From contig CAIFEG010000021.1 of the NCBI GenBank assembly GCA_903789415.1, positions 1-38,136 on the forward strand: DNA of 38,136 bases, written 5' to 3'. The translations under genes and the position numbers were made by a program. The notes beneath the pieces were generated by a model, which was not told the DNA's origin, did not search any database, and worked only from the letters and a program-made list of their open reading frames with translations. The DNA is from an uncultured Eggerthellaceae bacterium. GTDB lineage: Bacteria > Actinomycetota > Coriobacteriia > Coriobacteriales > Eggerthellaceae. This document shows, in pieces, positions 6,162 through 20,838 of the stretch (the stretch's first letter is position 1; every line of letters begins with the position of its first letter).

Positions 6162-7632
6162 TGGTGTTCTCCTTTCCAGACGCTTGTTTAGGTGTCGCAG
6201 GGTTGGCACCTAAATTTTTCTCTTCTTGAACGTGGCGTTTCGCCGCCGCCGTCACAGCCGCTTCATATCCCGGAGGATTGATCTTTACCGCTTCACCCTC
6301 GTCTTCCTCAAACTTCCAACCGTGCAGGCGATCTGCGGCAATATCGATATCCAGGTAGTCATCGCGACCATCCATAAGCCTGCCAAATGCCGTGAACAAA
6401 TAGTGCGCATCCGTTGGCCCAGGATTTGCTTCCGGATGGTATTGAACCGAAAATGCGGGAATATCCAGGCACGCCATGCCTTCGGGGGTGCCGTCGTTGA
6501 GGTTTACATGCGTGAGTTTAATACGGCCGACCTTGTCGTTTTGAACCACCGGCGCCACATGACGCTCGGTCCAAAAGCGAAGATCGTGTGCATGCTCGGT
6601 GACTCCATCGGACTCTTCAGGAACCAGCGGGCCGAGCGAATCGAATACCTGGCCAAATCCATGGTTTTGCGCCGTGATTTCAACACGCCCCGTAAGCAGG
6701 TTTTCCACCGGCTGGTTGCCACCATGATGGCCATACTTCAACTTTTCGATGCGCGCTCCGCAGGCCTTAGAAAGCATCTGATGGCCCAGGCAAATACCAA
6801 AGAACGGAACCTTACCGAGAAGCTTTTCTACCTGGGAATACGTTCCTTCTACCCTGTCAGGATCACCCGGTCCATTTGAGACAAACACGCCGTCGGGATG
6901 TTTTGCGAGCACCGCTTCGGCAGGCGTGTCCCATGGCACGATTTCAAGATCGCATCCCGAACGCGCCAGACCTTCCAAAATGCCATCTTTGACGCCGCAG
7001 TCATACACCACCACATGATGGGTTGCCCGCTCAGGCTCTTTCAGGGCAAAATCATGCCCCTTTGGCATATCAGATGCGTGGTATTCCTGAGGCTGCTCGC
7101 GAGACACATCGGAGACAAAATTGTGGTCGACGAGCGAAGGCTGCGCCGCGAGTTTTTTCATCAAGCTTTCGACATCGTCATCTTCGGTTGACAAAACAGC
7201 CTGTTGAGCTCCCGTTTCGCGAATATGGCGCACGAGGGAACGCGTGTCGATACCTTCGATGGCAACCACGTTATGCCGCTTCAGAAAATCGGGCAAGCTC
7301 TCCTGGCTGCGCCAGTTGCTTGGTTCGGTGCACATGTCGTGAACCACAAAGCCCGACAGCGCCACGTGATCGCGCTGCACGTCGTCTGGGCATACCCCAT
7401 AGTTTCCGATCTGAGGATACGTCATGGCAACAATCTGGCCCGCATAACTGGGGTCAGTCAGCACTTCTAGGTACCCCGTCATCGACGTGTTGAAACACAC
7501 TTCGCCAAATACTTCACCGCGTGCCGCGGGTGCAAAACCACGATACGTCGTGCCGTCGGCAAGCACGAGCAGCGCCTTAGCATTGGAATGCTTTGACGTA
7601 TGTGCCAACAATTGTTCAGAAATTGTACTCAT
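6154..7632 (-). CDS. carA: carbamoyl-phosphate synthase small (glutaminase) subunit
   Basis: Hydrolyses glutamine and channels ammonia to CarB. The N-terminal CPSase domain has the [14 protein letters not shown] block near residue 42; the class I glutaminase domain has Cys281 in GICLGHQ and His399/Glu401 in YHPEANPG. At 492 residues it is over 100 longer than the usual 360-380. The excess comes from an insertion of about 30 residues at roughly 333-372, between QNHGF and the [10 protein letters not shown] block, and a charged C-terminal extension of about 75 residues after 415. The start overlaps the pyrC stop as ATGA. All catalytic residues are present, so it should be active. Confidence 0.97.
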
Positions 7633-8918
7633 TGGACCTTTCCGTCCTCCATTGTTGCGTAACCACCCACATAGGTATCGGTTGCGCGTCCTTTCAGCTG
7701 CGCCCCAATAAACCCAGAGTTTTTACCCTTGCTATAGAAATCATCAACCGACACAACCCATTCGGCATCGGGATCAATGATGGTGAAATCAGCCGTTTGA
7801 CCTTCGGCAATCGTCACCGGATCAAGACGAAGAATCTTGCGCGGATTGATAGCCATAAGCTCAATCATGCGGTTGTAGTCGATGACACCCGTGTTCACGA
7901 GCTGGGTAAGTACCAGGCCTAAAGATGTTTCCAGTCCCGTCATGCCAAATGGCGCACGCTCAAATTCCTCATCTTTCTCCCATGCGGTATGAGGCGCGTG
8001 ATCAGTCACGATGCAATCAACAGTGCCATCGATGACGCCACGAACAAGTGCATCGTTGTCGGCTTGCGTGCGCAGCGGTGGGTTTACTTTCAAATTAGTG
8101 TCGTAGGTTTCATCGAGCGCATTTTCGTTTAGGAACAGATGATGCGGCGTAACTTCGCAGGTCACCGGCAACCCATCTGCTTTCGCCTGCCGAATAAGAT
8201 CAAGTCCATGCGCCGTGGTTACATGCTGAATATGAAGTGGTGTTCCCGTTAAGCGGCAAAGCTCAATATCACGGGCAATCTCCACTTCCTCTCCTGCTGC
8301 AGGCCATCCTTCCACGGCCAGACGCGTCGAAGCGGCACCCTCGTTTACCTGGCCATCTCCTACCAGGGATTTATCCTGACAGTGTTCCAAGATAGGCGTG
8401 CCGAATTGGTGTGCATAATCCATCATACGGCGCATGACACCGGTGTCCGCGATACCCGACCCGTCATCACTAAACGCAACGGCACCTGCACGCACCATGT
8501 CGCCCATTTCGGTCATGATCTTACCTTCACGACCCACCGTGCATGCACCTGAAACATACACGCGGCATTTCGCCACTTCTTCAGCGCGTTTGTTCACGTA
8601 TTCGACCATGGCCGCATTATCGATGGTCGGTTTGGTGTTTGGCATCTGCAGAACTGCGGTAAATCCACCATGCGCGGCAGCGCGCGAGCCACTTTCGATG
8701 TCTTCCTTTTCCTCGAAACCGGGATCGCGAAAATGTACATGCATGTCCATAAGACCCGGAACCATGATGTGTCCCGTCATATCGCGCGTGAGCCCTTTCG
8801 GAATGGACAAATCTTGCCCCAGCTGCACATACTTGCCGTCGCGCACGATGACGTCGCAAACTTGATCGAGGTTTTGCTGTGGGTCAATGACACGAATATT
8901 TTTAAGCAACAACGCCAT
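7629..8918 (-). CDS. pyrC: dihydroorotase
   Basis: Cyclises carbamoyl aspartate to dihydroorotate. It is a class I (amidohydrolase-fold) zinc enzyme of 429 residues. The metal-binding HVHFRDPG motif begins at His60, and further metal or substrate motifs QMPNTKP and DHAPHT follow. Two start codons compete: ATG at 8922-8924 lies only 2 bases after GGGAGG, while ATG at 8916-8918 has a normal 8-base spacing and is chosen here. The gene overlaps pyrB upstream by 17 bases and carA downstream by an ATGA. Confidence 0.96.
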   Translation of the reverse strand: MALLLKNIRVIDPQQNLDQVCDVIVRDGKYVQLGQDLSIPKGLTRDMTGHIMVPGLMDMHVHFRDPGFEEKEDIESGSRAAAHGGFTAVLQMPNTKPTIDNAAMVEYVNKRAEEVAKCRVYVSGACTVGREGKIMTEMGDMVRAGAVAFSDDGSGIADTGVMRRMMDYAHQFGTPILEHCQDKSLVGDGQVNEGAASTRLAVEGWPAAGEEVEIARDIELCRLTGTPLHIQHVTTAHGLDLIRQAKADGLPVTCEVTPHHLFLNENALDETYDTNLKVNPPLRTQADNDALVRGVIDGTVDCIVTDHAPHTAWEKDEEFERAPFGMTGLETSLGLVLTQLVNTGVIDYNRMIELMAINPRKILRLDPVTIAEGQTADFTIIDPDAEWVVSVDDFYSKGKNSGFIGAQLKGRATDTYVGGYATMEDGKVQ

Positions 8919-9846
8919 TGTCATTGCCTCCCATCAATAGATAAATGACTGCCATACGCACACATAAGCCAGAGAAAACCTGGTCAAGTACGAGCGAGCG
9001 CTTTGGATGATCGGCAATGTAGGAATCGATTTCAACGCCACGGTTCAAGGGACCCGGATGCATGATCACCGCGTCGGGGCGCATCAGGCGTTCGCGCTCT
9101 TCGGTGATGCCGTAGAGCATGTTGTATTCACGCAGTGAAGGGAACGGAGCGGTTTCCAAACGCTCAAGCTGTATGCGTAAGGTATAGATGACATCGAGAT
9201 CAGGAAGTACCTCTTCGAGATGTTCCGAGACATGATCGATGCCCAAAACCGAAGGATCATCAGGCAAAAGTGTTTGCGGCCCTATGACCGTGACATCTGC
9301 GCCCATAATCTTGAGCGCCGGGATAAGCGATCCGCAAACACGTGAATGCGAAACATCGCCCACAAACCCCACGTGCAGACCCTCCAAGCGTCCAAGCTTG
9401 CGCCACATGGTATACAGGTCGAGCAGCGCCTGAGTTGGGTGCACATGTTTGCCTTCACCTGCAGAAATAACATGTGCCTTGGTGTGTTGAGCAACCTTGA
9501 CAGAAGACCCTGCATATGAATTACGCATCACGACCAAATCAATGTTGTAGGAATTCAACGTCTGGATGGTATCCGTTAAGCTTTCGCCTTTCGTCATGGA
9601 ACTGGAAGAGCCACTGACCGCAAGCACGCTGCATGACAAACGCTGCTCGGCAAGCGTAAATGAGCTGCGCGTACGGGTTGAATGCTCGGTAAACAAATTC
9701 ACCGCCGTGCGCCCGCGCAAGGTAGGCAGTTGCTTGATTTCGCGTTGGTTGACTTCCTTCATCGCTTCTGCGGTATGGATGACCGTCATGATGTCATCGC
9801 GCGAAAGTTCGGTGATATCAATGAGGTTGTAGTGGTTAAACGCCAT
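8902..9846 (-). CDS. pyrB: aspartate carbamoyltransferase catalytic subunit
   Basis: Condenses carbamoyl phosphate with aspartate, the committed step. It has 314 residues. The carbamoyl-phosphate site STRTR is at 56-60 inside LFTEHSTRTRSSF; the second loop SSSMTKGES contains Lys86; HPTQA is at 136-140 and MHPGPLNRGVEID near the C-terminus. No pyrI regulatory subunit is nearby, consistent with the unregulated trimer found in operons of this type, where control is by PyrR. The start overlaps the pyrR stop as TAATG. Confidence 0.97.
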   Translation of the reverse strand: MAFNHYNLIDITELSRDDIMTVIHTAEAMKEVNQREIKQLPTLRGRTAVNLFTEHSTRTRSSFTLAEQRLSCSVLAVSGSSSSMTKGESLTDTIQTLNSYNIDLVVMRNSYAGSSVKVAQHTKAHVISAGEGKHVHPTQALLDLYTMWRKLGRLEGLHVGFVGDVSHSRVCGSLIPALKIMGADVTVIGPQTLLPDDPSVLGIDHVSEHLEEVLPDLDVIYTLRIQLERLETAPFPSLREYNMLYGITEERERLMRPDAVIMHPGPLNRGVEIDSYIADHPKRSLVLDQVFSGLCVRMAVIYLLMGGNDNGVVA

Positions 9847-10538
9847 TAGTTTGTGCTCCCCTCACGCTGATGATTTGGTTGATTATCCGTGGTGGAATTT
9901 TGGCTTTGCGGTGTGCGAGCAGAATTGTTCGTGGTTGCCGCGCCGGAAGCTTTCTGCGCCGAAGAGCTCAGCGGCGCCGAGCTCGGACGGCCACCCTTGG
10001 GAATGTTCAAGATCTCTACACGCGTAAATCCGTCGGTCGCTTTTAAGAACAAGCGCACGTTTTCGTTTTCTGCGGTCGGAACATTTTTGCCTACATAATC
10101 AGGGTGAATTGGGAGCTCACGATGTCCACGATCGATGAGCACCGCAAGCTGTACACGCGCAGGACGGCCTAGATCCATAAGTGCATCCAGTGCCGCACGA
10201 ATGGTGCGCCCGGTATATAACACGTCATCGACCAAAATGATGGTCTTGTCATTGATGCTAAACGGAATATTGGTAGCATGAACTTCCGGAGCATACGTGG
10301 TGTAGTCATCGCGGTAGAAGCTGATGTCTAAGCTTCCCAGAGGAACTTTGACCCCTTCGATTGCCTCGATCTTGTCTTGAAGCTCGTGCGCAAGAACATC
10401 TCCTCGCGTCACGATTCCCACCAGCGCAAGGTTGTTTGCGCCATGGTTTACCTCAAGTATTTGATGCGCGATACGCGTAAGCGTTCGCTCGACATCCGAC
10501 TCATCCATGCAAATGGACTTTACCTGAGATTCCGTCAT
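9846..10538 (-). CDS. pyrR: PyrR attenuation regulator / uracil phosphoribosyltransferase
   Basis: An RNA-binding regulator that senses UMP and PRPP and usually also has weak uracil phosphoribosyltransferase activity. It has 230 residues from the ATG at 10536-10538, preceded by AGGGGAG; a GTG two codons earlier lies inside that ribosome site and is rejected. The PRPP loop is ILVDDVLYTGRT at residues 101-112. The conserved protein ends near residue 183; a tail of about 47 residues rich in Ser, Ala, Thr, Asn and Gln follows, absent from typical 175-190-residue PyrR. It is the first gene of the operon and lies just behind the attenuator that it is expected to bind. Confidence 0.96.
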   Translation of the reverse strand: MTESQVKSICMDESDVERTLTRIAHQILEVNHGANNLALVGIVTRGDVLAHELQDKIEAIEGVKVPLGSLDISFYRDDYTTYAPEVHATNIPFSINDKTIILVDDVLYTGRTIRAALDALMDLGRPARVQLAVLIDRGHRELPIHPDYVGKNVPTAENENVRLFLKATDGFTRVEILNIPKGGRPSSAPLSSSAQKASGAATTNNSARTPQSQNSTTDNQPNHQREGSTN

Positions 10539-10653
10539 ACACACTCCCCTTCTTTCAGTTCGGGTGCAGGAAACCCACAGGTATCATCGCCAGGAAGTTC
10601 AGAGGTCATACGCGCATGGTTCATACAATAAGTGCCATGTGCGCTGGGGGCAT

Positions 10654-11163: not shown

Positions 11164-11781
11164 TTGGCGAAATTTACCAAAATAGCTATAGAGAAAACAT
11201 TTATTGATCTTTTAAACGAACGTCCGCTCGACCAAATTACCGTAACCGACATCGTGAATCGTTGCGGAGTTAATCGCAACACGTTTTATTACTATTTTGA
11301 AGATGTATATGCGCTGATCGACGAGATCTTTCGCGAACAAACAAACGAACTCTTGGACAACTACCCTGTTGAATCAGTCAACAGCTTAAAAAGTGGATTT
11401 GAGGTTGCCACGAAGTTCATGCGCGAGAACAAGACGGCAATTTTCCATTTGTACAATTCGCTCAACCGTGGCCGCTTAGAAGAATATGTCTACGATATTG
11501 CCGAGAAAACGGTTGATCGTTTCATCCATGCACAGGCCGAAGGAATGAACGTTTCCGAGCATGACCTCAACGTTCTCACGCGTCTGTATACCTCGGCATT
11601 TGAAGGAGTGGCACTTCGCTGGATGAGTGAGGGAATGTCTGTTGATCCCATCGAATACATCAACGATATCGATCGCTTAATCCACGGAGTTACGAAATCA
11701 ATCCTGAAAAATGCTTCCAAGGACGCGGCCGATACCTCAAGCTCCGATTCATCTCGTCCTCAGAATTCGAAGAAGAATTAA
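11164..11781 (+). CDS. TetR/AcrR-family transcriptional regulator
   Basis: A 205-residue regulator. The N-terminal helix-turn-helix (residues about 10-47) reads ITVTDIVNRCGVNRNTFYYYF, the TetR signature; the rest is an all-helical ligand or dimer domain, ending in a polar Ser/Asp/Lys tail. The start is taken as TTG 11164-11166, placed 7 bases after AGGAG; an upstream in-frame ATG at 11050 would add 38 residues before the usual TetR N-terminus and has no ribosome site. It precedes the metK-like/MMPL/YhgE operon on the same strand, with a palindromic operator candidate in between, so it probably represses that operon. The inducer is unknown. Confidence 0.9.
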   Translation: MAKFTKIAIEKTFIDLLNERPLDQITVTDIVNRCGVNRNTFYYYFEDVYALIDEIFREQTNELLDNYPVESVNSLKSGFEVATKFMRENKTAIFHLYNSLNRGRLEEYVYDIAEKTVDRFIHAQAEGMNVSEHDLNVLTRLYTSAFEGVALRWMSEGMSVDPIEYINDIDRLIHGVTKSILKNASKDAADTSSSDSSRPQNSKKN

Positions 11782-11788
11782 CGCACGC

Positions 11789-11815
11789 GCACGCGCATTT
11801 GCGCGGTTCGCGTGC
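11789..11815 (+). terminator. possible weak terminator after tetR
   Basis: GCACGCG (11789-11795) pairs with CGCGTGC (11809-11815) across a 13-base loop and is followed by only a short ATTTG. It ends 34 bases after the tetR stop. The weak T-tract makes this uncertain. Confidence 0.35.
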
Positions 11816-11942
11816 ATTTGTGCGACGAGCCCAGGTCCGAGCGATTAATGTATCTTCGTGCGATTAAAATGCTCCCGTGTAGCACTGACAAATCACCTGA
11901 TCATTTGCGTATTCATCGCACCAAACCATTCAAATCCGCGTA

Positions 11943-11981
11943 ATTGTCTAATTTTCAGACAATTTAATTTGATTGTCTGAA
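11943..11981 (+). promoter_or_regulatory. candidate TetR operator upstream of metK-like operon
   Basis: TTCAGACAAT (11954-11963) and ATTGTCTGAA (11972-11981) form a perfect 10-base inverted repeat separated by 8 bases. A third half-site ATTGTCT at 11943-11949 makes another inverted pair with AGACAAT (11957-11963). The 28-base symmetric element is the right size for a TetR-family dimer or pair of dimers. It lies 91 bases before the metK-like start and about 160 after tetR. Binding by the adjacent regulator is inferred. Confidence 0.65.
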
Positions 11982-12072
11982 TTTCGAACGCATCCACATT
12001 TATTGACCGTAGCCTGCATAAATCTTTTGATTCATAGTTTTTTATGTACTATCAATCGACGATTGCGGATTT

Positions 12073-13272
12073 ATGGAACCAAGCACGTATTTTACAAGCG
12101 AAGCAGTATGCACCGGTCATCCGGATAAGGTGTGCGATCAAATTGCCGACGCGCTCCTAGACCATACGCTTGCCCAAGACCCCTCTGCACTTGCCGATTA
12201 CGACGTGGCAATATGCCCCGGTCACGTGCTTGTTATGGGAAAATCATCGGTCAGAATCAAAGACATCGAAGGCATCGTACGTGCCGAGCTTACGCGTATT
12301 GGTTATACTCGCGAAAATTCGGGGGTCGACCCTGCAACATGCACCATCGATGTACACCTGCGCAAACCTTCTTTTGATGTGTCCCGAACGGTCATGCGCA
12401 GCAACAGGGCCGACGCGGGAAGCAGCGACGGTGGCATGTGCATCGGATATGCCTGCGATGAAACATCCACCTATATGCCCGCGCCGATTGAACGAGCCCG
12501 TCAGATGGCAAAAAAGCTTGAGGCGCTTCATCACGATCATAAAGAACAAATCTTTCCTGATGGAAAAGCCCAGGTGTGCTACGAGTACGAAGACGGCGTA
12601 CCAAAACGGGTGCAGTCCGTGATTCTGTGTGTTCAGCACTCCCCTGAAATGAGCACCGATCTGCTCCGTGACAAGTTGGAACAAGACATTGTTCGCTCGA
12701 CAATCCCCGCATCTCAGATGGATGACGATACCCAGATCTACATCAACCCAACCGGCTTTTTTATGACCGGCGGCCCCAACGTAAAAGCGGGATGCACGGG
12801 AAGAAAAACCGGAGCCGATTTCTATGGGTCTGCCACCCACCACATCGGAAGTTCGGTAGCGGGCAAAGATCCAAGCAAAACAACTCGTTCGGGTGCGTAT
12901 ATGGCGCGCTACATCGCCAAAAACATTGTGGCGGCTGGCATCGCACATGCCTGCGAGGTGCGCCTGACCTATGCAATCGGTCTTACCGACCCGGTATGTG
13001 TCGCGATTGACCTGGATAGACCGATTCACCAGAAACCAAAACTGCTCAAATCATCTAAAAAATCCGAAGGACTCGTCCATCAATTAAAAAAGTGGATCGA
13101 TTCCAACTTAGATTTGCGACCGGAGAAAATCATCGAAAAGTTTGATCTGCGTCGCCCGATATATCATTCGCTTTCGTGTTTTGGAAATGTGGGGTTATAT
13201 GCGAAACAAATGTCGTGGGAGAAAACAGATATCGCCCAGAAGATCGCAAATGATCTGGGATTTCAGAAATAG
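12073..13272 (+). CDS. divergent S-adenosylmethionine synthetase-like protein
   Basis: A full-length 399-residue member of the MetK family, which makes S-adenosylmethionine from methionine and ATP. Conserved blocks include FTSEAVCTGHPDK (His15, Asp17 region), MPAPI, PDGKAQV, INPTG, TGRK, AGKDPSK and ARYIAKNIVAAG. By manual comparison with E. coli MetK, several residues invariant in active enzymes are changed: the Glu of GGEI is Lys (LVMGK), the methionine-site Asp of GPMGDCG is Lys (GPNVKAG), the metal-ligand Asp of KVDRS is Thr (KTTRS), and the QSPDINQGVD loop is replaced. It may be a neofunctionalised paralogue and not the housekeeping enzyme. It is first in an operon with an MMPL transporter. 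Confidence 0.85.
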   Translation: MEPSTYFTSEAVCTGHPDKVCDQIADALLDHTLAQDPSALADYDVAICPGHVLVMGKSSVRIKDIEGIVRAELTRIGYTRENSGVDPATCTIDVHLRKPSFDVSRTVMRSNRADAGSSDGGMCIGYACDETSTYMPAPIERARQMAKKLEALHHDHKEQIFPDGKAQVCYEYEDGVPKRVQSVILCVQHSPEMSTDLLRDKLEQDIVRSTIPASQMDDDTQIYINPTGFFMTGGPNVKAGCTGRKTGADFYGSATHHIGSSVAGKDPSKTTRSGAYMARYIAKNIVAAGIAHACEVRLTYAIGLTDPVCVAIDLDRPIHQKPKLLKSSKKSEGLVHQLKKWIDSNLDLRPEKIIEKFDLRRPIYHSLSCFGNVGLYAKQMSWEKTDIAQKIANDLGFQK

Positions 13273-13296
13273 AGGACACGCCAGCAAGGAAAAATA

Positions 13297-15489
13297 ATGA
13301 CAAAGACAACACCAGAAAATACCGAAAAGAAGAAGCACCAACCTGGCTTGGCGTTCGGACATTTTATTGTCAAACACCATATCGCCATCTTGATACTTGC
13401 GATTGTGCTGCTAATCCCGTGTATTATCGGGAACAACATGACACGCATTAACTACGACTTGCTTACCTATCTTCCTGATGATATGGAAACAGTTAAAGGC
13501 CAAGACATCCTGATGGACGATTTTGGCAAGGGCGCATTTTCCCTGATCGTATGCGAGGGAATGCCACAGCAACAGGTAGATAGCCTGGCGGATCAGATCA
13601 GCGATGTTCCGCACGTTGCTCAGGTGCTCTATACCAATGATCTAACCGATATGGGAATCCCTCAAGAGGCAATCCCGAGCGACATTTACGACAAATTCAA
13701 TAAAGGCGACGATACGATGATGGCGGTGTTCTTTGAAGAAGGAACATCTGCCGACGATACCATCAACGCCGTAACCCAGATCAGAAGCATCTCAAACGAG
13801 CATGTTTTCATCAGCGGACTTTCCGCGATGGTCACCGACTTAAAGGACGTTGCCCAAAACGAAGAGCCAATCTATGTTGGCCTTGCCGTGTTGCTTTCTG
13901 TTATTGCCCTTCTGTTCTTAACCGATAGTTTCTTAGTTCCCTTTATCTTTTTGGCATCCATCGGTATTGCCATTATGTGGAACTTGGGCTCGAACTACTT
14001 CCTGGGAAATATTTCATACGTCACAAAAGCGCTGGCAGCGGTATTGCAGTTAGCCGTGACGATGGACTACTCCATCTTCTTATGGCATGCATTTACCGAA
14101 GAACGCGAGAATTATCCGGGTAACTCCAACGAAGCTATGGCCGTTGCTATCCAAAATACATTGACGGCAATCGTCAGTTCTGCCCTTACCGCAACGGCGG
14201 GCTTCTTAGCCATGATTTTCATGACGTACCAACTGGGCGCCGACCTGGGCATTGTTATGGCAAAAGGATGCTTGCTCGGTCTGTTAGGATCCGTCACGAC
14301 CCTTCCAGCACTCATTCTGCTCTTTGAAAAGCCATTGATGAAGACGCGCCACAAGACGCTTATCCCAAATGCGCGTCGCCTGTCTAATTCCGTTACAAAG
14401 CACTATGGCATCTATCTTGCAATCTTTGTAGTCGTGCTCATCCCGGCAATCATCGGCTTTAACAACAAACCATTAATCTACGACTTCAGCAGAATTGCCT
14501 CGGGCGGCGGCGGCGACAGCAGCTTTGCGTACGTTACCGCAAACCATAAGGTTGAAGACGACTTTGACGTTGCCACCACCGAAATGGTGCTGTGCAAATC
14601 CGATATGCCGCATGCGCAGGCAAAAGAAATGCTTGATAAGATCAATGACGTCGACGGCGTAGACTACGCGATTGGTTACGACAGTTTGGTTGGTGGACAG
14701 ATTCCCGATCAGATGGTCCCCGATGAAGTGAAGGACGCCTTAAAGAGTGGCGACTGGCAGCTGATCATGATCAATTCGTCCTACAAGGTTTCAACCGATG
14801 AGGTTAACAACCAGATCGACGAAATTAACAGCATCATTAAGAGCTACGATCCAGACGCAATGCTGATTGGCGAAGCGCCTGCGACCAAGGATCTGATCAG
14901 CACGACTGATCACGACTTCCAAGTGGTCGACGCGATCGCAATTGTTTCGATTCTTGTGATTCTGCTTATTGTATTCCGGTCGATTACCCTACCGTTTATC
15001 TTGGTCTTGGTTATCGAATTCGCCATTATGATCAACTTGGGTCTGCCGTATTACATGAATGACCCGATGGTGTTCTTGGCCCCAATCTGTATCAGTACGA
15101 TTCAGCTGGGATCAACGGTGAACTACGCTATCTTACTTACGACGCGTTACCGCAGAGAACGCTTCAATGGCGCGGGCAAACGTGGCGCTATCTCAACCGC
15201 AATGACCACATCACTGCCGTCTGGCGTCACGAGCGCTGTTACGTTCTTCGCAGCAACTTTGGGCGTTTCGCTTTACTCGAACATGACGATCATCAGCCAA
15301 CTCACCGGCCTTATGAGCCGCGGCGCGATCATCAGTATGTTCAGCGTATTATTCATCCTTCCGGCGTTCTTCATGTTGCTCGATGGAGCGATTGTAAGAA
15401 CAAGCCATGGATTCCTTCCACATAAAGGTGGCAAAGGTACAACCCGCAAAGAAATTGGAGCAAAAGCAGGTACGGAGGTCTCCGAATGA
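13297..15489 (+). CDS. MMPL/RND-family transporter
   Basis: A 730-residue membrane transporter with the duplicated RND layout: TM1 at about 27-46, an extracytoplasmic loop, TM2-6 at about 191-335, TM7 at about 371-388, a second loop and TM8-12 at about 546-715. TM4 keeps the Asp257-Tyr258 pair typical of proton-coupled MMPL pumps, but the equivalent position in TM10 is Asn609-Tyr610. Actinobacterial relatives export lipids, siderophores or drugs; no substrate can be inferred here. An AAGGA site lies 7 bases before the ATG, 24 bases after the metK-like stop. Its end overlaps the next gene as ATGA, so the two are co-translated. Confidence 0.93.
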   Translation: MTKTTPENTEKKKHQPGLAFGHFIVKHHIAILILAIVLLIPCIIGNNMTRINYDLLTYLPDDMETVKGQDILMDDFGKGAFSLIVCEGMPQQQVDSLADQISDVPHVAQVLYTNDLTDMGIPQEAIPSDIYDKFNKGDDTMMAVFFEEGTSADDTINAVTQIRSISNEHVFISGLSAMVTDLKDVAQNEEPIYVGLAVLLSVIALLFLTDSFLVPFIFLASIGIAIMWNLGSNYFLGNISYVTKALAAVLQLAVTMDYSIFLWHAFTEERENYPGNSNEAMAVAIQNTLTAIVSSALTATAGFLAMIFMTYQLGADLGIVMAKGCLLGLLGSVTTLPALILLFEKPLMKTRHKTLIPNARRLSNSVTKHYGIYLAIFVVVLIPAIIGFNNKPLIYDFSRIASGGGGDSSFAYVTANHKVEDDFDVATTEMVLCKSDMPHAQAKEMLDKINDVDGVDYAIGYDSLVGGQIPDQMVPDEVKDALKSGDWQLIMINSSYKVSTDEVNNQIDEINSIIKSYDPDAMLIGEAPATKDLISTTDHDFQVVDAIAIVSILVILLIVFRSITLPFILVLVIEFAIMINLGLPYYMNDPMVFLAPICISTIQLGSTVNYAILLTTRYRRERFNGAGKRGAISTAMTTSLPSGVTSAVTFFAATLGVSLYSNMTIISQLTGLMSRGAIISMFSVLFILPAFFMLLDGAIVRTSHGFLPHKGGKGTTRKEIGAKAGTEVSE

Positions 15490-18143
15490 AACATCAAACA
15501 GGAAATATCAGCAAACTTCGCAACGTTGCACTTGCAATGATTTTGACCGCAGGTGTGGGCGTACCAAGTATTGCCGCAATCAATAGCACGAACGGTTTGC
15601 AAGCCAACCAAGCACAGGCGGCCGAGCAGGCGTCGGATTCGCAGAACTCAAATGCAGATTCTCAGAATTCAGATTCCGAGAGCTCAGACAGCTTGAAGAA
15701 TGCGTTGGATGCGTTCAACCAAAACACCGAAACAGACACGATATCCACGAAGCAATCGAAAGAAGAAAGCGTGTATTTGCTTTCTCAAGCGAATGGCGAT
15801 GTGAAACAAACCATTGTGTCTGACTGGCTGCACAACGTTAACCAGGATCAAAAACTTACCGATGTAAGCAACCTGGATGACATTACGAATACCGAATCGG
15901 AGGCGGGATACACCAAGACCGGCGATGGTCAGAAGCTTACATGGGATGCAAATGGTGAAGATATTTACTATCAGGGCACCACAAATCAAGAAGCTCCTAT
16001 CAGCATGCATGTAACCTACAAGCTGAATGGCCAAGAGGTTTCGCCGGACGACATTGCGGGCAAAAGTGGCCAGGTAGAGATCACCTATAGCTTCACTAAC
16101 AACACCGGCAGAACTACCACCATTGATGGACAAGATCAGCAGATCTATACCCCGTTTACGTGCATTACGGGTGTGGTGCTGGACAACGACAACTTTAAGA
16201 ACGTGCAGGTGACTAATGGCCGTAGCGTCAACGATGGCGACCACACCACCGTGGCCGGACTTGCGATGCCTGGTATGCAAGAGGATCTGGGAATCGATAA
16301 GGAAGACCTGGATATCCCTGATCACTTCACCATCACCGCCGACGCAACGGACTTCAAGCTTGCAAACACCGGTACGATTGTGACAAGCGACGCGTTAAAC
16401 AACATCGATACCACCAATCTGAACGACCAAAGTGTGGAAGATCAACTCAACCAGGTACAAGATGCCATGCAGCAGTTGATGGATGGATCGAGTCAGCTTT
16501 CTGATGGCTTAGATCAACTTGCCGATGGTGCAGATCAACTTGATAGTGGCGTTGGTCAGCTACAGAGCGCAACCGCAAGCCTTCCTGATAGCGCAAACCA
16601 GCTGGCAGATGGATCAAACCAGCTTGCCGTAGGTATTCAGAGTGCCTATGACGGATCTGGCCAGCTTGAGCAGGGCATCAATTCTGCTGCCGATGGCACG
16701 CAGCAACTCTCAAGCGCAAATTCGCAGATCTACAATGGCTTGCATGCCCTGAAATATGGCACAAGTTCTGAAACAGGCTTACAAGATGCTGTGAGCGCCG
16801 TGAACCAATTAGAAGCCGGCACGCAGAGCCTATCTGCTGGCCTTAAGACGATGCAAACATCAACGAATGGCGGATATACACAGCTCGAAGCTGGTGCAAC
16901 TCAGCTGAATCAGGGTCTAACGACAGGACAGCAGCGATTAGATGGCGCACTCGCTGACAATGGTCCTATAATGACTGGGATCGGAACGATAAAATCAGAA
17001 GCTTCTTCAACAGTTAGCCAACTACCTGATCAAGCTGCACCTATAGTCAATAATTTAAACCTTGCTGCAGAACAATCAGATAATGCTGTTGATCGTTTAT
17101 CAAACCCAAATGGAAGTGCAACAACTGACTTAGCTTCCGCTTCAGCATCTATTGATAAGCTTCAAGATCAGTTAGATCTATTAAATACTCAATACGGGAG
17201 CTTAATGAATGATGATCAAAAAACTGAATTCAACAATGCCCAGAATAATTTAAACGATGCGAAAGCTTCTATAGCAGCAGCTCAGTTAAATACTAGAGAT
17301 GCAAATACATCAGCAGTAGAGTCTGCCCAAAGAATTAATTCGACCATAAGTCCTCAAAATTTAACAAACATATATTCCGGGATTAGCAATAGCAATGATC
17401 AACTTCAGGATGGCCTTGACCAAATCCAAGGTGGCCTTACGCAGCTAAGAGACACATCTCATAACAGTTTGCAGTCCGCAATCGATGGATCATCAAAAAT
17501 TGCTTCTGGACTTACCACGGCAAACACCCAGATGAACGCTGGATATGCACAATTAATCCAGGGTTGCGACACCATCGACAACGGCCTCAATGCCGTAAAC
17601 AACGGTGGAGGAAACGTCGGCGGCAAGGAAAACAAGGGTCTTCAGGGTGCTCTGGATGGGCTCGGAGACAACAACACCTCAGGCACGCTGCTTTACGGCT
17701 CCAATGCCATGGGCAATGGTCTCAACCAGCTCAACGGTGGTATGTCACAGCTCTCCTCTGGTTCAAATGCTCTGACATCTGGTCTTGGGACTGCCGCAAG
17801 TGGATCTGATCAGCTTGCAGGCGGACTTGGTCAGCTGCAGTCGCAAACCCCTGCCCTGGTTGATGGCATCGGTCAGCTCAAAAATGGATCTGGCCAACTT
17901 GCAACGGGCGCGCAAAGTGCTGCAACTGGTTCTGTACAACTTCAAGATGGCCTGACCCAGTTCAACGATCAAGCAGTACAGCGTGTGGTCGATGCTTACA
18001 ATGACAACATAAAAGGATTTTCTTCACACCTGACCGCTACAGTGAATGCTGGCAAACAGTATGACAACTTTAGCGGTAAGGATTCTCAGATGGCTGGATC
18101 GGTGAAGTTCATTATCGAGACTGACAGCATCAACATGGACTAG
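15486..18143 (+). CDS. large secreted YhgE/Pip-like repeat protein
   Basis: An 885-residue protein with a signal peptide: basic start, hydrophobic core at about 14-31 and likely cleavage after AQA near residue 44. After an acidic Ser/Asn-rich linker comes a folded region (about 90-310), then long heptad-like repeats of the x-QL-x-x-G-x type (about 320-480 and 640-850) as in YhgE/Pip proteins. The C-terminus has no membrane segments, unlike classical YhgE with its ABC-2-type membrane domain. A central part (about 480-640, bases 16930-17400) is AT-richer with different codon choice. Overlap with the MMPL gene suggests a shared machine; a stalk or adaptor role is an inference. Confidence 0.82.
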   Translation: MKHQTGNISKLRNVALAMILTAGVGVPSIAAINSTNGLQANQAQAAEQASDSQNSNADSQNSDSESSDSLKNALDAFNQNTETDTISTKQSKEESVYLLSQANGDVKQTIVSDWLHNVNQDQKLTDVSNLDDITNTESEAGYTKTGDGQKLTWDANGEDIYYQGTTNQEAPISMHVTYKLNGQEVSPDDIAGKSGQVEITYSFTNNTGRTTTIDGQDQQIYTPFTCITGVVLDNDNFKNVQVTNGRSVNDGDHTTVAGLAMPGMQEDLGIDKEDLDIPDHFTITADATDFKLANTGTIVTSDALNNIDTTNLNDQSVEDQLNQVQDAMQQLMDGSSQLSDGLDQLADGADQLDSGVGQLQSATASLPDSANQLADGSNQLAVGIQSAYDGSGQLEQGINSAADGTQQLSSANSQIYNGLHALKYGTSSETGLQDAVSAVNQLEAGTQSLSAGLKTMQTSTNGGYTQLEAGATQLNQGLTTGQQRLDGALADNGPIMTGIGTIKSEASSTVSQLPDQAAPIVNNLNLAAEQSDNAVDRLSNPNGSATTDLASASASIDKLQDQLDLLNTQYGSLMNDDQKTEFNNAQNNLNDAKASIAAAQLNTRDANTSAVESAQRINSTISPQNLTNIYSGISNSNDQLQDGLDQIQGGLTQLRDTSHNSLQSAIDGSSKIASGLTTANTQMNAGYAQLIQGCDTIDNGLNAVNNGGGNVGGKENKGLQGALDGLGDNNTSGTLLYGSNAMGNGLNQLNGGMSQLSSGSNALTSGLGTAASGSDQLAGGLGQLQSQTPALVDGIGQLKNGSGQLATGAQSAATGSVQLQDGLTQFNDQAVQRVVDAYNDNIKGFSSHLTATVNAGKQYDNFSGKDSQMAGSVKFIIETDSINMD

Positions 18144-18224
18144 TTTGGCTATCTAGTTTGGCTAGTTTCGGCTCGTTGCAGAAGTTGTTCACGTCGATTT
18201 AAAACATAGATAGACCTTCGTACA

Positions 18225-18258
18225 TGGCCCGCAGTTCATAGAGCTGCGGGCCATTTTC
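18225..18258 (+). terminator. intrinsic terminator of the metK-like/MMPL/YhgE operon
   Basis: TGGCCCGCAG (18225-18234) and CTGCGGGCCA (18244-18253) form a perfect 10-pair stem with a 9-base loop and a TTTT tail on the plus strand. The minus strand has no T-run, so it serves the plus-strand operon and separates it from the convergent transporter gene. Confidence 0.85.
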
Positions 18259-18295
18259 GTACTGACAAACTTTTCAATTCTTACGACTACGTGCA

Positions 18296-19279
18296 TCATT
18301 CCTGCGACGGATGCCGCGGCAAACTCTCTTCTTCCTCTTCTTCTTTTATGGCTATCTGCTCTTCGCGGGCATCGTTGAGCGTCACGATAACGACCATGCT
18401 GATCATCAACGCAAATCCGATGAGATCTGCCACACCGAGCGCACTTCCTAACAACCACCAAGAGAATATCGTTGCCGAAACCGGCTCAGAGAGCCCCAGA
18501 AGATTCGCCCGCACTCCCCCAACATCTTTCACACCTTGTAAGAACAGCGTGAATGCGACAAACGTTCCTAAGAAGACCACGGCAATGGTTGCCCAGATAG
18601 AAAGCGCGTCCCATTGTATTCCGTAGTCGCGCCATGGCTGTGCAAGCGGGAACGAGTAAATGCCGCCCATTAAAAGAGTGATCGACATGACCGGAATGCT
18701 GCCCCACTTCGCAAGAAGTTTTTTGGGGTATCCGGAAAAGAACGCCTGGCCGCATGCATTGACCATGCCCCACGCAAGACCAGCCACACTCATTTCAAGC
18801 GTAAAGGATCCTTTTGTCGCGATTAAAAATACACCGGCAAGTGCCAACACCGTTGCGATAACGTCCATCTTCTCGGGCAGTTTCCGCTCAATAATACAGG
18901 TAGCCACGATCAAAATGACGATGCCAAAGCTCTGCAGCACGGTCGCGATACCGGCCCCGTTGTACTGAATAGAAGAAATATAGGGAAGCTGAATGGCGAA
19001 TGCGCCGAACACCGACAAGATGAGAATCTCGAGCAGCGTATGAGGGCTGCGAATCATCTTTTTCATTCTGTCGGGCTCAAGGATGAACGCCAAGACCGTA
19101 AGCGCAAGACCAGCGAACAGCATACGCATCCAGGTAAGCAGGATAGGCGGAACCCCATAGGTTTCAGTTAAAAGCTGGCAGCACATGCCGGAAAAACCCC
19201 AGCATGTTCCACCAACTAACACGCATATTGTGCCACGCGCCGTATGACTATGGCGAGAAGTCGTATGTTGCTTGGTCAA
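18296..19279 (-). CDS. EamA (DMT superfamily) transporter, copy 1
   Basis: A 327-residue integral membrane protein with about ten hydrophobic segments arranged as two EamA repeats; GGTCWGFSGMCCQLL at the start of repeat 1 and GLSEPVSATIFSW in repeat 2 are diagnostic. The family exports metabolites such as amino acids; the substrate is unknown. The start is TTG 19277-19279, with GGGGGA about 8 bases upstream and a perfect TATAAT (19302-19297) about 18 bases upstream of the start, giving a very short leader. It ends in a poly-Glu stretch. It is clearly paralogous to the next gene on the same strand. Confidence 0.92.
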   Translation of the reverse strand: MTKQHTTSRHSHTARGTICVLVGGTCWGFSGMCCQLLTETYGVPPILLTWMRMLFAGLALTVLAFILEPDRMKKMIRSPHTLLEILILSVFGAFAIQLPYISSIQYNGAGIATVLQSFGIVILIVATCIIERKLPEKMDVIATVLALAGVFLIATKGSFTLEMSVAGLAWGMVNACGQAFFSGYPKKLLAKWGSIPVMSITLLMGGIYSFPLAQPWRDYGIQWDALSIWATIAVVFLGTFVAFTLFLQGVKDVGGVRANLLGLSEPVSATIFSWWLLGSALGVADLIGFALMISMVVIVTLNDAREEQIAIKEEEEEESLPRHPSQE

Positions 19280-19346
19280 ACCGTAATCCCCCGAAAATTA
19301 TATGGAGCAAATCGAAGGAACAGCCATGGGACGTTCCGTGATCACG

Positions 19347-20402
19347 CTAGGCGATCTTGCGATCGGAAACCCGATCAGGAACCTTGTGATCAACAATCTT
19401 TCTATCGGTATGCTCTTGTATACGTGCGCCGCTCAGTTGGTTCGTTTTGGAGGGGTGACCAACGCGGTGTACGCGAATATGTTTTGTTTCTTTAGGCTTT
19501 ACTAGTGTAACAATAATCACCATGCTAATCATCAACGCAAAGCCAACTATATCGATGGGAGCAAGCGCCGATCCTAACAGTGCCCAGGAGAAAATCGATG
19601 CGCTCACTGGCTCAGAAAGTCCCACGAGTGTCGCACGAACTGATCCGATGCGTTTGACGCCTTCTAAGAATAAGAAGAATGCGGCCAGCGTGCCTAAAAG
19701 CACCATGGAAGCCATGGCACCAATAGCGATGGGATCCCAGTTCACGTGCATATTCCAAGGCTGAGCCAGAGGAATGCCGTATATTCCGCCCATAAACATT
19801 GCGATGCCTAGCACCGGCATTACTCCATATTCACGAAGCATGCGAATTGGATATTGCGCATAAAATGCGCTTGTGGTCGCATCGACAAGGCCCCAGAGCA
19901 ACCCAAGCACCGGAATCGCTAAGGCGCCAAAGTTTCCGTGCGTGGCAATCAAAAACACACTTGTGATGCCCATGATGGTTGCAATGATTTCAACGTTTGA
20001 TGGAGCCTTTTTATAGTGTACACATGCCCACACAATCAGAATGACAACCTGAAAGCTCTGAATGACGGTGGCCATACCCGCACTGGTGTACATCGTGGCC
20101 AGTGCATATGAAGTCTGCACGAGAAATAAACCAAAAACTGAAAACAGAAGCAAGCTAAAAAATGTTTTCTTGTTTTTTAGCATCGCAACAATTTTTTCGC
20201 GTTGAGCAAGCAGCAGATACGCCATCGCAAGAAGTCCCGTACACGACATTCGCACCCAGGTGATAAATGTTGCTGGGACATCATAGGTGGTCGTGAGCAG
20301 CTGCGCACACGTACCAGAAAAGCCCCAGAGAATACCGCCTACAAGCGTACAAAGAACGCCAACGAGCAATTGGCTATGAGCAACTGCAGTTTTTTGAGAC
20401 AT
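19347..20402 (-). CDS. EamA (DMT superfamily) transporter, copy 2
   Basis: A 351-residue membrane protein with two EamA repeats, sharing WGFSG.CCQLL-like, PLAQPW and GLSEPVSA..FSW blocks with its neighbour; the two look like a tandem duplication. The start is ATG 20400-20402, with AAAGGA 6 bases upstream; an earlier in-frame start would add 21 residues without a ribosome site. Compared with copy 1 it has a hydrophilic C-terminal tail of about 45 residues containing repeated His-Asp-Arg-Lys motifs. The substrate is unknown; 67 bases separate it from copy 1. Confidence 0.92.
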   Translation of the reverse strand: MSQKTAVAHSQLLVGVLCTLVGGILWGFSGTCAQLLTTTYDVPATFITWVRMSCTGLLAMAYLLLAQREKIVAMLKNKKTFFSLLLFSVFGLFLVQTSYALATMYTSAGMATVIQSFQVVILIVWACVHYKKAPSNVEIIATIMGITSVFLIATHGNFGALAIPVLGLLWGLVDATTSAFYAQYPIRMLREYGVMPVLGIAMFMGGIYGIPLAQPWNMHVNWDPIAIGAMASMVLLGTLAAFFLFLEGVKRIGSVRATLVGLSEPVSASIFSWALLGSALAPIDIVGFALMISMVIIVTLVKPKETKHIRVHRVGHPSKTNQLSGARIQEHTDRKIVDHKVPDRVSDRKIA

Positions 20403-20838
20403 CTCCGATCCTTTTCTCAACGCGTTTTGCCGAACAAATTTTGCCAACCAAATTTGGTTGTGCAACCCGAAAATCAGTGAAGATTTTCCTCTGGTATCGT
20501 GATGTTCACGCCCTTTTTGAAGTCTGTCAACAGTTAATTGGAAGACTTCACGCGACGGGTAGAACTCCCTTGAAATAAGGGTAAAAATCGCCGAAAAACA
20601 GGCAGAAAATGATCCGAAAAGTCAAACATGCGAGTGCTGAAAAGAGGCGCCGAAGAATCAAGTTAAAGAACAAGGTGGGAACCTTCCGCGGACATAAAAA
20701 TGGCTCCCTTCCGAGAGAAGAGAGCCACATACAATCAGTTTCTGATCGAGCGCCGTAGGTATCAATCTCGTTTTGTCAACGCCAACCACGATGGTGCGGC
20801 AAGCACAGGCTGTCAGCACCGCACCCGCCAAACAAAGA
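20403..20838. other. 436-base gene-free region upstream of EamA copy 2
   Basis: No gene is supported. On the minus strand it contains, in order, a hairpin CGATCAG-AAA-CTGATTG, the terminator at 20727-20696, a short AAGGT/ACCTT hairpin, and TTGACA (20530-20525) with a weak GAACAT box 17 bases on, a promoter candidate for the EamA gene. The size leaves room for a small RNA or a long leader, but nothing was recognised. Confidence 0.5.
20696..20727 (-). terminator. intrinsic terminator downstream of yqeY
   Basis: The minus strand reads TGGCTC, one mismatch, CTTC, a 5-base loop, GAAG and GAGCCA (20727-20701), followed by TTTTT (20700-20696). It lies about 110 bases beyond the yqeY stop and 294 bases before EamA copy 2, so it most simply ends the yqeY transcript. 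Confidence 0.7.

Follow-up and report, generated by a model that had tools for sequence, protein, structure and literature searches.

Few known enzymes are as conserved as the S-adenosylmethionine (SAM) synthetase MetK, or methionine adenosyltransferase (MAT). Each active site of MAT combines residues of two subunits, E55 coming from one and Q98 and D238 from the other, and all three residues are listed as methionine contacts in a review of the Escherichia coli structure (PMC1282579); the methionine carboxylate is held by Q98 and K269 (PMC3853416). With regard to TetR-controlled export, FarR/FarE of Staphylococcus aureus is a fatty-acid efflux pair made up of a TetR regulator and an RND/MMPL pump (PMC10019231), and in the same organism an oleate hydratase is deployed against fatty acids of this kind (PMC7948970). 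We regard FarR/FarE, by analogy, as the nearest characterized analogue of the operon described below, in which a TetR regulator and an MMPL pump are found together with a divergent MetK paralogue.

The stretch of DNA analyzed here, hereafter the window, spans contig C21 in full (38,136 nucleotides), and statements about its genome refer to a single assembly of 1.88 Mb that is 96% complete; its genes and relatives point to the order Coriobacteriales. On the plus strand, a gene for a TetR-family regulator (TetR_N and TetR_C_8 domains, DhaS-like; 11164..11781; recognition helix CGVNRNTFYYYF) starts with a TTG codon at 11164 preceded by GAGGAG. It is followed on the same strand by the gene for a 399-aa protein with the MAT fold, here called MetK-like (12073..13272), whose ATG has a weak ribosome-binding site ahead of it. 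A 24-bp junction (13273..13296) that holds the next ribosome-binding site (AAGGAA) leads to the gene for an MMPL/RND-family membrane transporter of 730 aa (13297..15489, plus strand), and this gene overlaps by 4 bp (ATGA at 15486) with that of a secreted XxxLxxG-repeat protein of 885 aa (15486..18143, plus strand). Downstream lies a Rho-independent-type terminator hairpin on the plus strand (GGCCCGCAG...CTGCGGGCC, then ATTTTCG; 18220..18262) with a folding energy of -29.6 kcal/mol and a z score of -6.3. Between TetR and MetK-like, the predicted TetR operator, to which no strand is assigned, comprises two overlapping dyads (AATTGTCT/AGACAATT and TTCAGACAAT/ATTGTCTGAA; 11942..11981), with a core 17-mer, TGTCTAATTTTCAGACA, at 11945-11961.

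A first-pass annotation of this DNA had proposed these four genes with short or overlapping junctions, a palindromic operator beside the TetR gene, and a strong shared terminator, all of which we found at the positions given. Its further view that they make up one TetR-controlled unit is supported, with the reservation that TetR may have a transcript of its own, because a 291-bp operator/promoter region parts it from MetK-like. A SAM riboswitch or other RNA element was considered and rejected, the window giving no Rfam match. The operon is flanked upstream by a pyrC-pyrB-pyrR operon on the minus strand (7629..10544; families named by eye from the sequence), whose PyrR (9846-10544) carries a low-complexity C-terminal tail of about 40 residues rich in Ser, Asn, and Gln, and it is adjoined at 18296-20465 by two tandem, mutually similar minus-strand genes for EamA-type transporters, also named by eye.

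MetK-like matches the TIGR01034 metK profile over its full length (359 bits versus a cut-off of 309), holds all three S-AdoMet_synt Pfam domains and the HPDK motif, and is 36-45% identical to bacterial MetK proteins. AlphaFold predicts the MAT fold for it with confidence (pTM 0.89), the best PDB matches of the model are all MAT, and its reading frame is intact over 399 codons with coding-type GC by codon position. MetK-like is a second metK copy and not the sole one of this genome, the canonical metK being found elsewhere (C3:47130-48347, 422 aa, 41% identity to MetK-like).

We aligned 195 other MetK proteins and counted as near-invariant the 82 columns with an invariance of 97% or more. At least 96% of these columns are retained by each of the other MetK proteins, whereas MetK-like retains 67 and has lost 15; the active-site-altered paralogue announced by the first-pass annotation was thus borne out. 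The substitutions include E42D, E55K, Q98P, G117S, Q119G, D238K, G258I, G260S, and D271T (E. coli numbering), among which E55, Q98, and D238 are conserved in 194, 195, and 195 of the 195 other proteins, respectively. At the metal site, D16 is kept while D271 and E42 are changed. MetK-like also keeps H14, K17, S99, D118, D163, K165, F230, R244, K245, K265, and I302, as well as K269, a further methionine contact. All of the ATP/triphosphate residues (H14, K165, R244, K245, K265, D163, and F230) are therefore present, and mutagenesis of E. coli MAT assigns some of the kept residues a role in binding adenosine or triphosphate. Several are described as binding adenosine or triphosphate in the structural literature (PMC1282579, PMC3853416). 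When the four methionine contacts (E55, Q98, D238, and K269) were compared with the twelve other residues H14, D16, K17, S99, D118, D163, K165, F230, R244, K245, K265, and I302, three of the four were lost versus none of the twelve (Fisher p ~0.007, calculated by hand on sets of our own choosing).

These active-site changes are genuine and beyond chance. Because the residue losses are one-sided and the model is a confident MAT fold, MetK-like appears to be a protein of the MAT fold whose methionine site is disabled or altered, rather than a decayed fragment. As its main methionine contacts are replaced, with two acid-to-lysine reversals among them, MetK-like most likely no longer makes SAM; it probably binds ATP without binding methionine. 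A search of the literature found no dead bacterial MetK paralogue.

The pump module was then compared with its relatives. Thirteen other genomes of the order carry an MMPL protein at 57-67% identity to the window pump, and TetR lies directly before MMPL in eight of them (L128, L129, L130, L131, L134, L136, L255, and L256), being displaced, absent, or lost to a contig end in the remainder. In several relatives, TetR, MMPL, and the repeat protein sit in or beside pyr genes, as in the window. None of the 13 has a metK beside MMPL in the stretches examined. By this comparison, TetR-MMPL-repeat protein appears to be the ordinary, older, ancestral core module, and since the 13 pump relatives are without an adjacent metK, MetK-like appears to be an addition in the window lineage, seen within the order only here. 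Directly after the repeat protein in the locus most closely related to that of the pump lies a gene for a DUF308-like membrane protein (L255:10118-10810); it resembles by eye the DUF308 gene beside MMPL in the Clostridial locus L040 described below, and BLAST at 1e-6 made no link between the two.

The nearest MetK relatives of MetK-like are second MetK (MetK2) proteins of Clostridia that are translationally coupled to a radical-SAM (rSAM)/SPASM enzyme, have canonical active sites, and probably supply that enzyme. A TetR of the same class was found in five of the seven Clostridial rSAM-MetK2 loci with enough flank (L033, L035, L037, L040, and L114). The most complete order is that of L040 (AP025576; L040:2184-15027), namely TetR, hydrolase, oleate hydratase, rSAM, MetK2, RelA-like, DUF308, MMPL, and repeat protein, with an MMPL 52% identical to the window pump. 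L037 has TetR, oleate hydratase, rSAM, MetK2, RelA-like, and DUF308, and L038 has oleate hydratase, DUF308, MMPL, repeat protein, rSAM, and MetK2 in a different order. Judged by gene content, the set of TetR, oleate hydratase, rSAM, MetK2, RelA-like, DUF308, MMPL, and repeat protein looks like a fatty-acid response regulon.

The radical-SAM/SPASM enzyme, of about 456 aa (L143:9078-10475, corresponding to G000:C5:21116-22441; also noted in loci L010, L015, L020, L021, L024, and L167), is also present in 50 of the 92 good genomes of the window's family, where its gene is often an immediate neighbor of the canonical metK. In the window genome, its orthologue (59% identity) lies on another contig and is not adjacent to MetK-like; a search run without a positive control found no oleate hydratase in this genome. 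One lead is that the enzyme might act as a membrane-spanning-lipid synthase (Mss).

We derived a 17-bp dyad consensus, TGYCYAAATTTYRGRCA, by visual inspection of several loci and afterward scored its occurrences. The window copy at 11945 matches it at 16/17 positions, one site versus 0.2 expected per window; this version has no second exact copy in the genome, where none of the three one-mismatch sites lies by an obviously related gene. The consensus is found between TetR and MMPL in L130, L131, L134, L136, and L256 and in weaker form in L128 and L129, and L135, which was left out when the consensus was made, has a 17/17 site upstream of MMPL. In the Clostridial loci L040 and L037, a 17/17 site follows TetR, and in L040 the oleate hydratase is preceded by a second operator-like site (15/17). 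L255 (G357), the nearest relative of the pump, has no clear copy (13/17, p 0.09), and the operator is not recognizable in L257. Between the window, its relatives, and the Clostridial loci, TetR hardly varies in its recognition helix.

The first-pass annotation had put forward conservation of metK beside MMPL genes as the test of its proposal and accidental adjacency as the outcome against it. Within the order, the pairing is indeed peculiar to the window, as an accident would have it, but it recurs in Clostridia. Because MetK-like stands behind the same predicted 17-bp TetR operator as the pump genes of relatives, and because metK and MMPL also share loci in Clostridia, MetK-like does not appear to be a random neighbor.

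With regard to its origin, no MetK-like orthologue above 45% identity was found in 397 genomes of the order or 396 of the phylum, nor in viral contigs, plasmids, phages, or the genome-contig matches listed; the best of the matches listed (G396) is 45% identical and has a canonical active site. In the tree, MetK-like falls on the Clostridial MetK2 side (support 100/95) with a very long branch (3.7 changes per column), yet an AU test did not reject placement on the side of its own family (p 0.39), so that MetK-like is perhaps derived from the Clostridial rSAM-linked MetK2 group. Recent foreign import was not indicated by composition, its GC3 being similar to that of neighboring genes. In three genera of the family, a second metK was noticed whose scores are nearly equal (247 bits; G005:C1:278330-279553, G062:C1:3035021-3036244, and G089:C1:8193-9416) and which perhaps lies on a mobile element.

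The transporter matches PF03176 at 5.8e-53 in two stretches and resembles MmpL3/4/5 and HpnN chains. The repeat protein is predicted to have an N-terminal hydrophobic/signal segment, a beta-rich domain (residues ~95-300), and a long XxxLxxG coiled coil, read from a low-confidence model for secondary structure only; no C-terminal membrane segment was seen. The first-pass annotation had called this last gene YhgE-like, an identity that did not hold: Pfam and NCBIfam gave no YhgE/Pip match, and NCBIfam instead gave the TIGR03057 XxxLxxG heptad repeats together with a weak SMC coiled-coil match. The central coiled-coil part (16900-17430) is AT-rich, with a third-position GC of 0.20-0.38 compared with about 0.5 on either side, as would be seen if foreign sequence had replaced the original segment. 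The closest family analogues of the pump are exporters of lipids or hydrophobes. The pump and its secreted partner most likely move a lipid or other hydrophobe.

Altogether, we favor with moderate confidence a TetR-regulated lipid or hydrophobe efflux operon with a co-regulated, methionine-blind MAT-fold protein, either a pseudo-synthetase or an enzyme with a new substrate. TetR would bind the dyad at 11942-11981 and from there repress or activate MetK-like, MMPL, and the repeat protein, with transcription running through the three genes, presumably as a single transcript, to the terminator. The ancestral core of TetR, MMPL, and repeat protein would move a lipid or hydrophobe, a substrate proposed because of the FarR/FarE analogy and the oleate hydratase in the Clostridial loci. 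In the window lineage, a MetK paralogue would have been placed between operator and pump; its MAT fold and ATP/triphosphate half-site are retained, and its main methionine contacts are replaced. MetK-like may then serve as an ATP-binding pseudo-synthetase, in the role of a sensor, a decoy, or a partner of canonical MetK. Because each MAT active site uses two subunits, neither site of a mixed dimer of MetK-like and canonical MetK would work normally, and a regulatory partnership is plausible. The operon anatomy, shared operator, fold, and residue losses are read from the sequence itself.

A bolder form of this proposal, which we put forward only tentatively, is that the MAT fold was recruited away from SAM synthesis, so that ATP and an anionic ligand other than methionine are used or sensed in a TetR-controlled lipid-efflux response; we know of no bacterial precedent for such a use of the MetK fold. 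Less likely than a pseudo-synthetase, and in our view unlikely, is that MetK-like is a working enzyme that acts on another acceptor, probably an anionic one, still splitting ATP into an adenosyl group and tripolyphosphate for transfer (or only making or cleaving triphosphate) and feeding the pump or regulator. The kept ATP side, the change of the ammonium-binding acids to lysines by E55K and D238K, and an intact frame behind the operon's predicted operator all speak for it, but the altered Mg/K-site residues (D271 and E42) and glycine loops (G117, G258, and G260) argue against efficient catalysis, and a conserved new pocket lacks support, as orthologues were not found among the genomes searched and matches listed.

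It is likewise rather improbable that MetK-like is a second metK without a role, brought into the operon by chance and now degenerating. The absence of metK beside the pump in the 13 other genomes, the very long branch, and the weak ribosome-binding site would fit such a passenger, but 399 codons have stayed open despite that branch with 67/82 near-invariant positions kept, the losses are concentrated in one half-site by the Fisher comparison of self-chosen sets, the junction with MMPL is a clean 24 bp, and metK also occurs in Clostridial TetR/MMPL loci. We give very little credence to the idea that MetK-like makes SAM for the genome's own rSAM enzyme: an orthologue of that enzyme is present and rSAM-metK adjacency is conserved in Clostridia and the window's family, but its gene lies outside the operon, and MetK-like has none of the three contacts E55, Q98, and D238, which the 195 other MetK proteins keep save for E55 in one of them. 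As for the first-pass suggestion that a sulfonium or methionine-like molecule is built into, or used to modify, a compound that the operon produces and exports, it fares very poorly even though the unit does combine an exporter with a MetK fold, since the lost residues are exactly the methionine binders, the pump core occurs without metK in relatives, the unit has no other biosynthetic gene, and the closest analogues of the pump export lipids or hydrophobes.

If the favored lipid-efflux reading with a methionine-blind MAT-fold protein is true, MetK-like is a natural MetK copy with swapped methionine contacts and a kept ATP side, a ready case of fold repurposing. The shared predicted operator also ties the window to the Clostridial set of oleate hydratase, rSAM with its own SAM synthetase, alarmone-synthetase-like protein, MMPL, and repeat protein, suggesting a fatty-acid or lipid response in gut anaerobes.

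Compared with E. coli MAT (PDB 1RG9; TIGR01034), MetK-like has the same fold, three Pfam domains, ATP/triphosphate residues, and HPDK motif, but differs in that E55, Q98, D238, the metal ligand D271, E42, and glycine-loop residues are replaced. The last protein of the operon resembles YhgE/Pip-type and XxxLxxG proteins (TIGR03057) in its repeats and in the position of its gene directly after MMPL, whereas it is secreted, matches no YhgE/Pip model, and shows no C-terminal membrane segment. The Clostridial loci L040, L037, and L038 share the TetR class and recognition helix with the window, L040 and L037 share the 17-bp operator, and L040 and L038 combine metK with MMPL and repeat protein; their MetK2 proteins, however, have a canonical active site and are coupled to an oleate hydratase and a radical-SAM enzyme, neither of which is encoded in the window operon. 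FarR/FarE differs in that its genes are divergent, unlike those of the window, and neither a MetK-like gene nor a heptad-repeat partner has been described for it. It has in common with the window a TetR regulator beside a single MMPL pump, and in the window and its relatives this adjacency comes with a common predicted operator.
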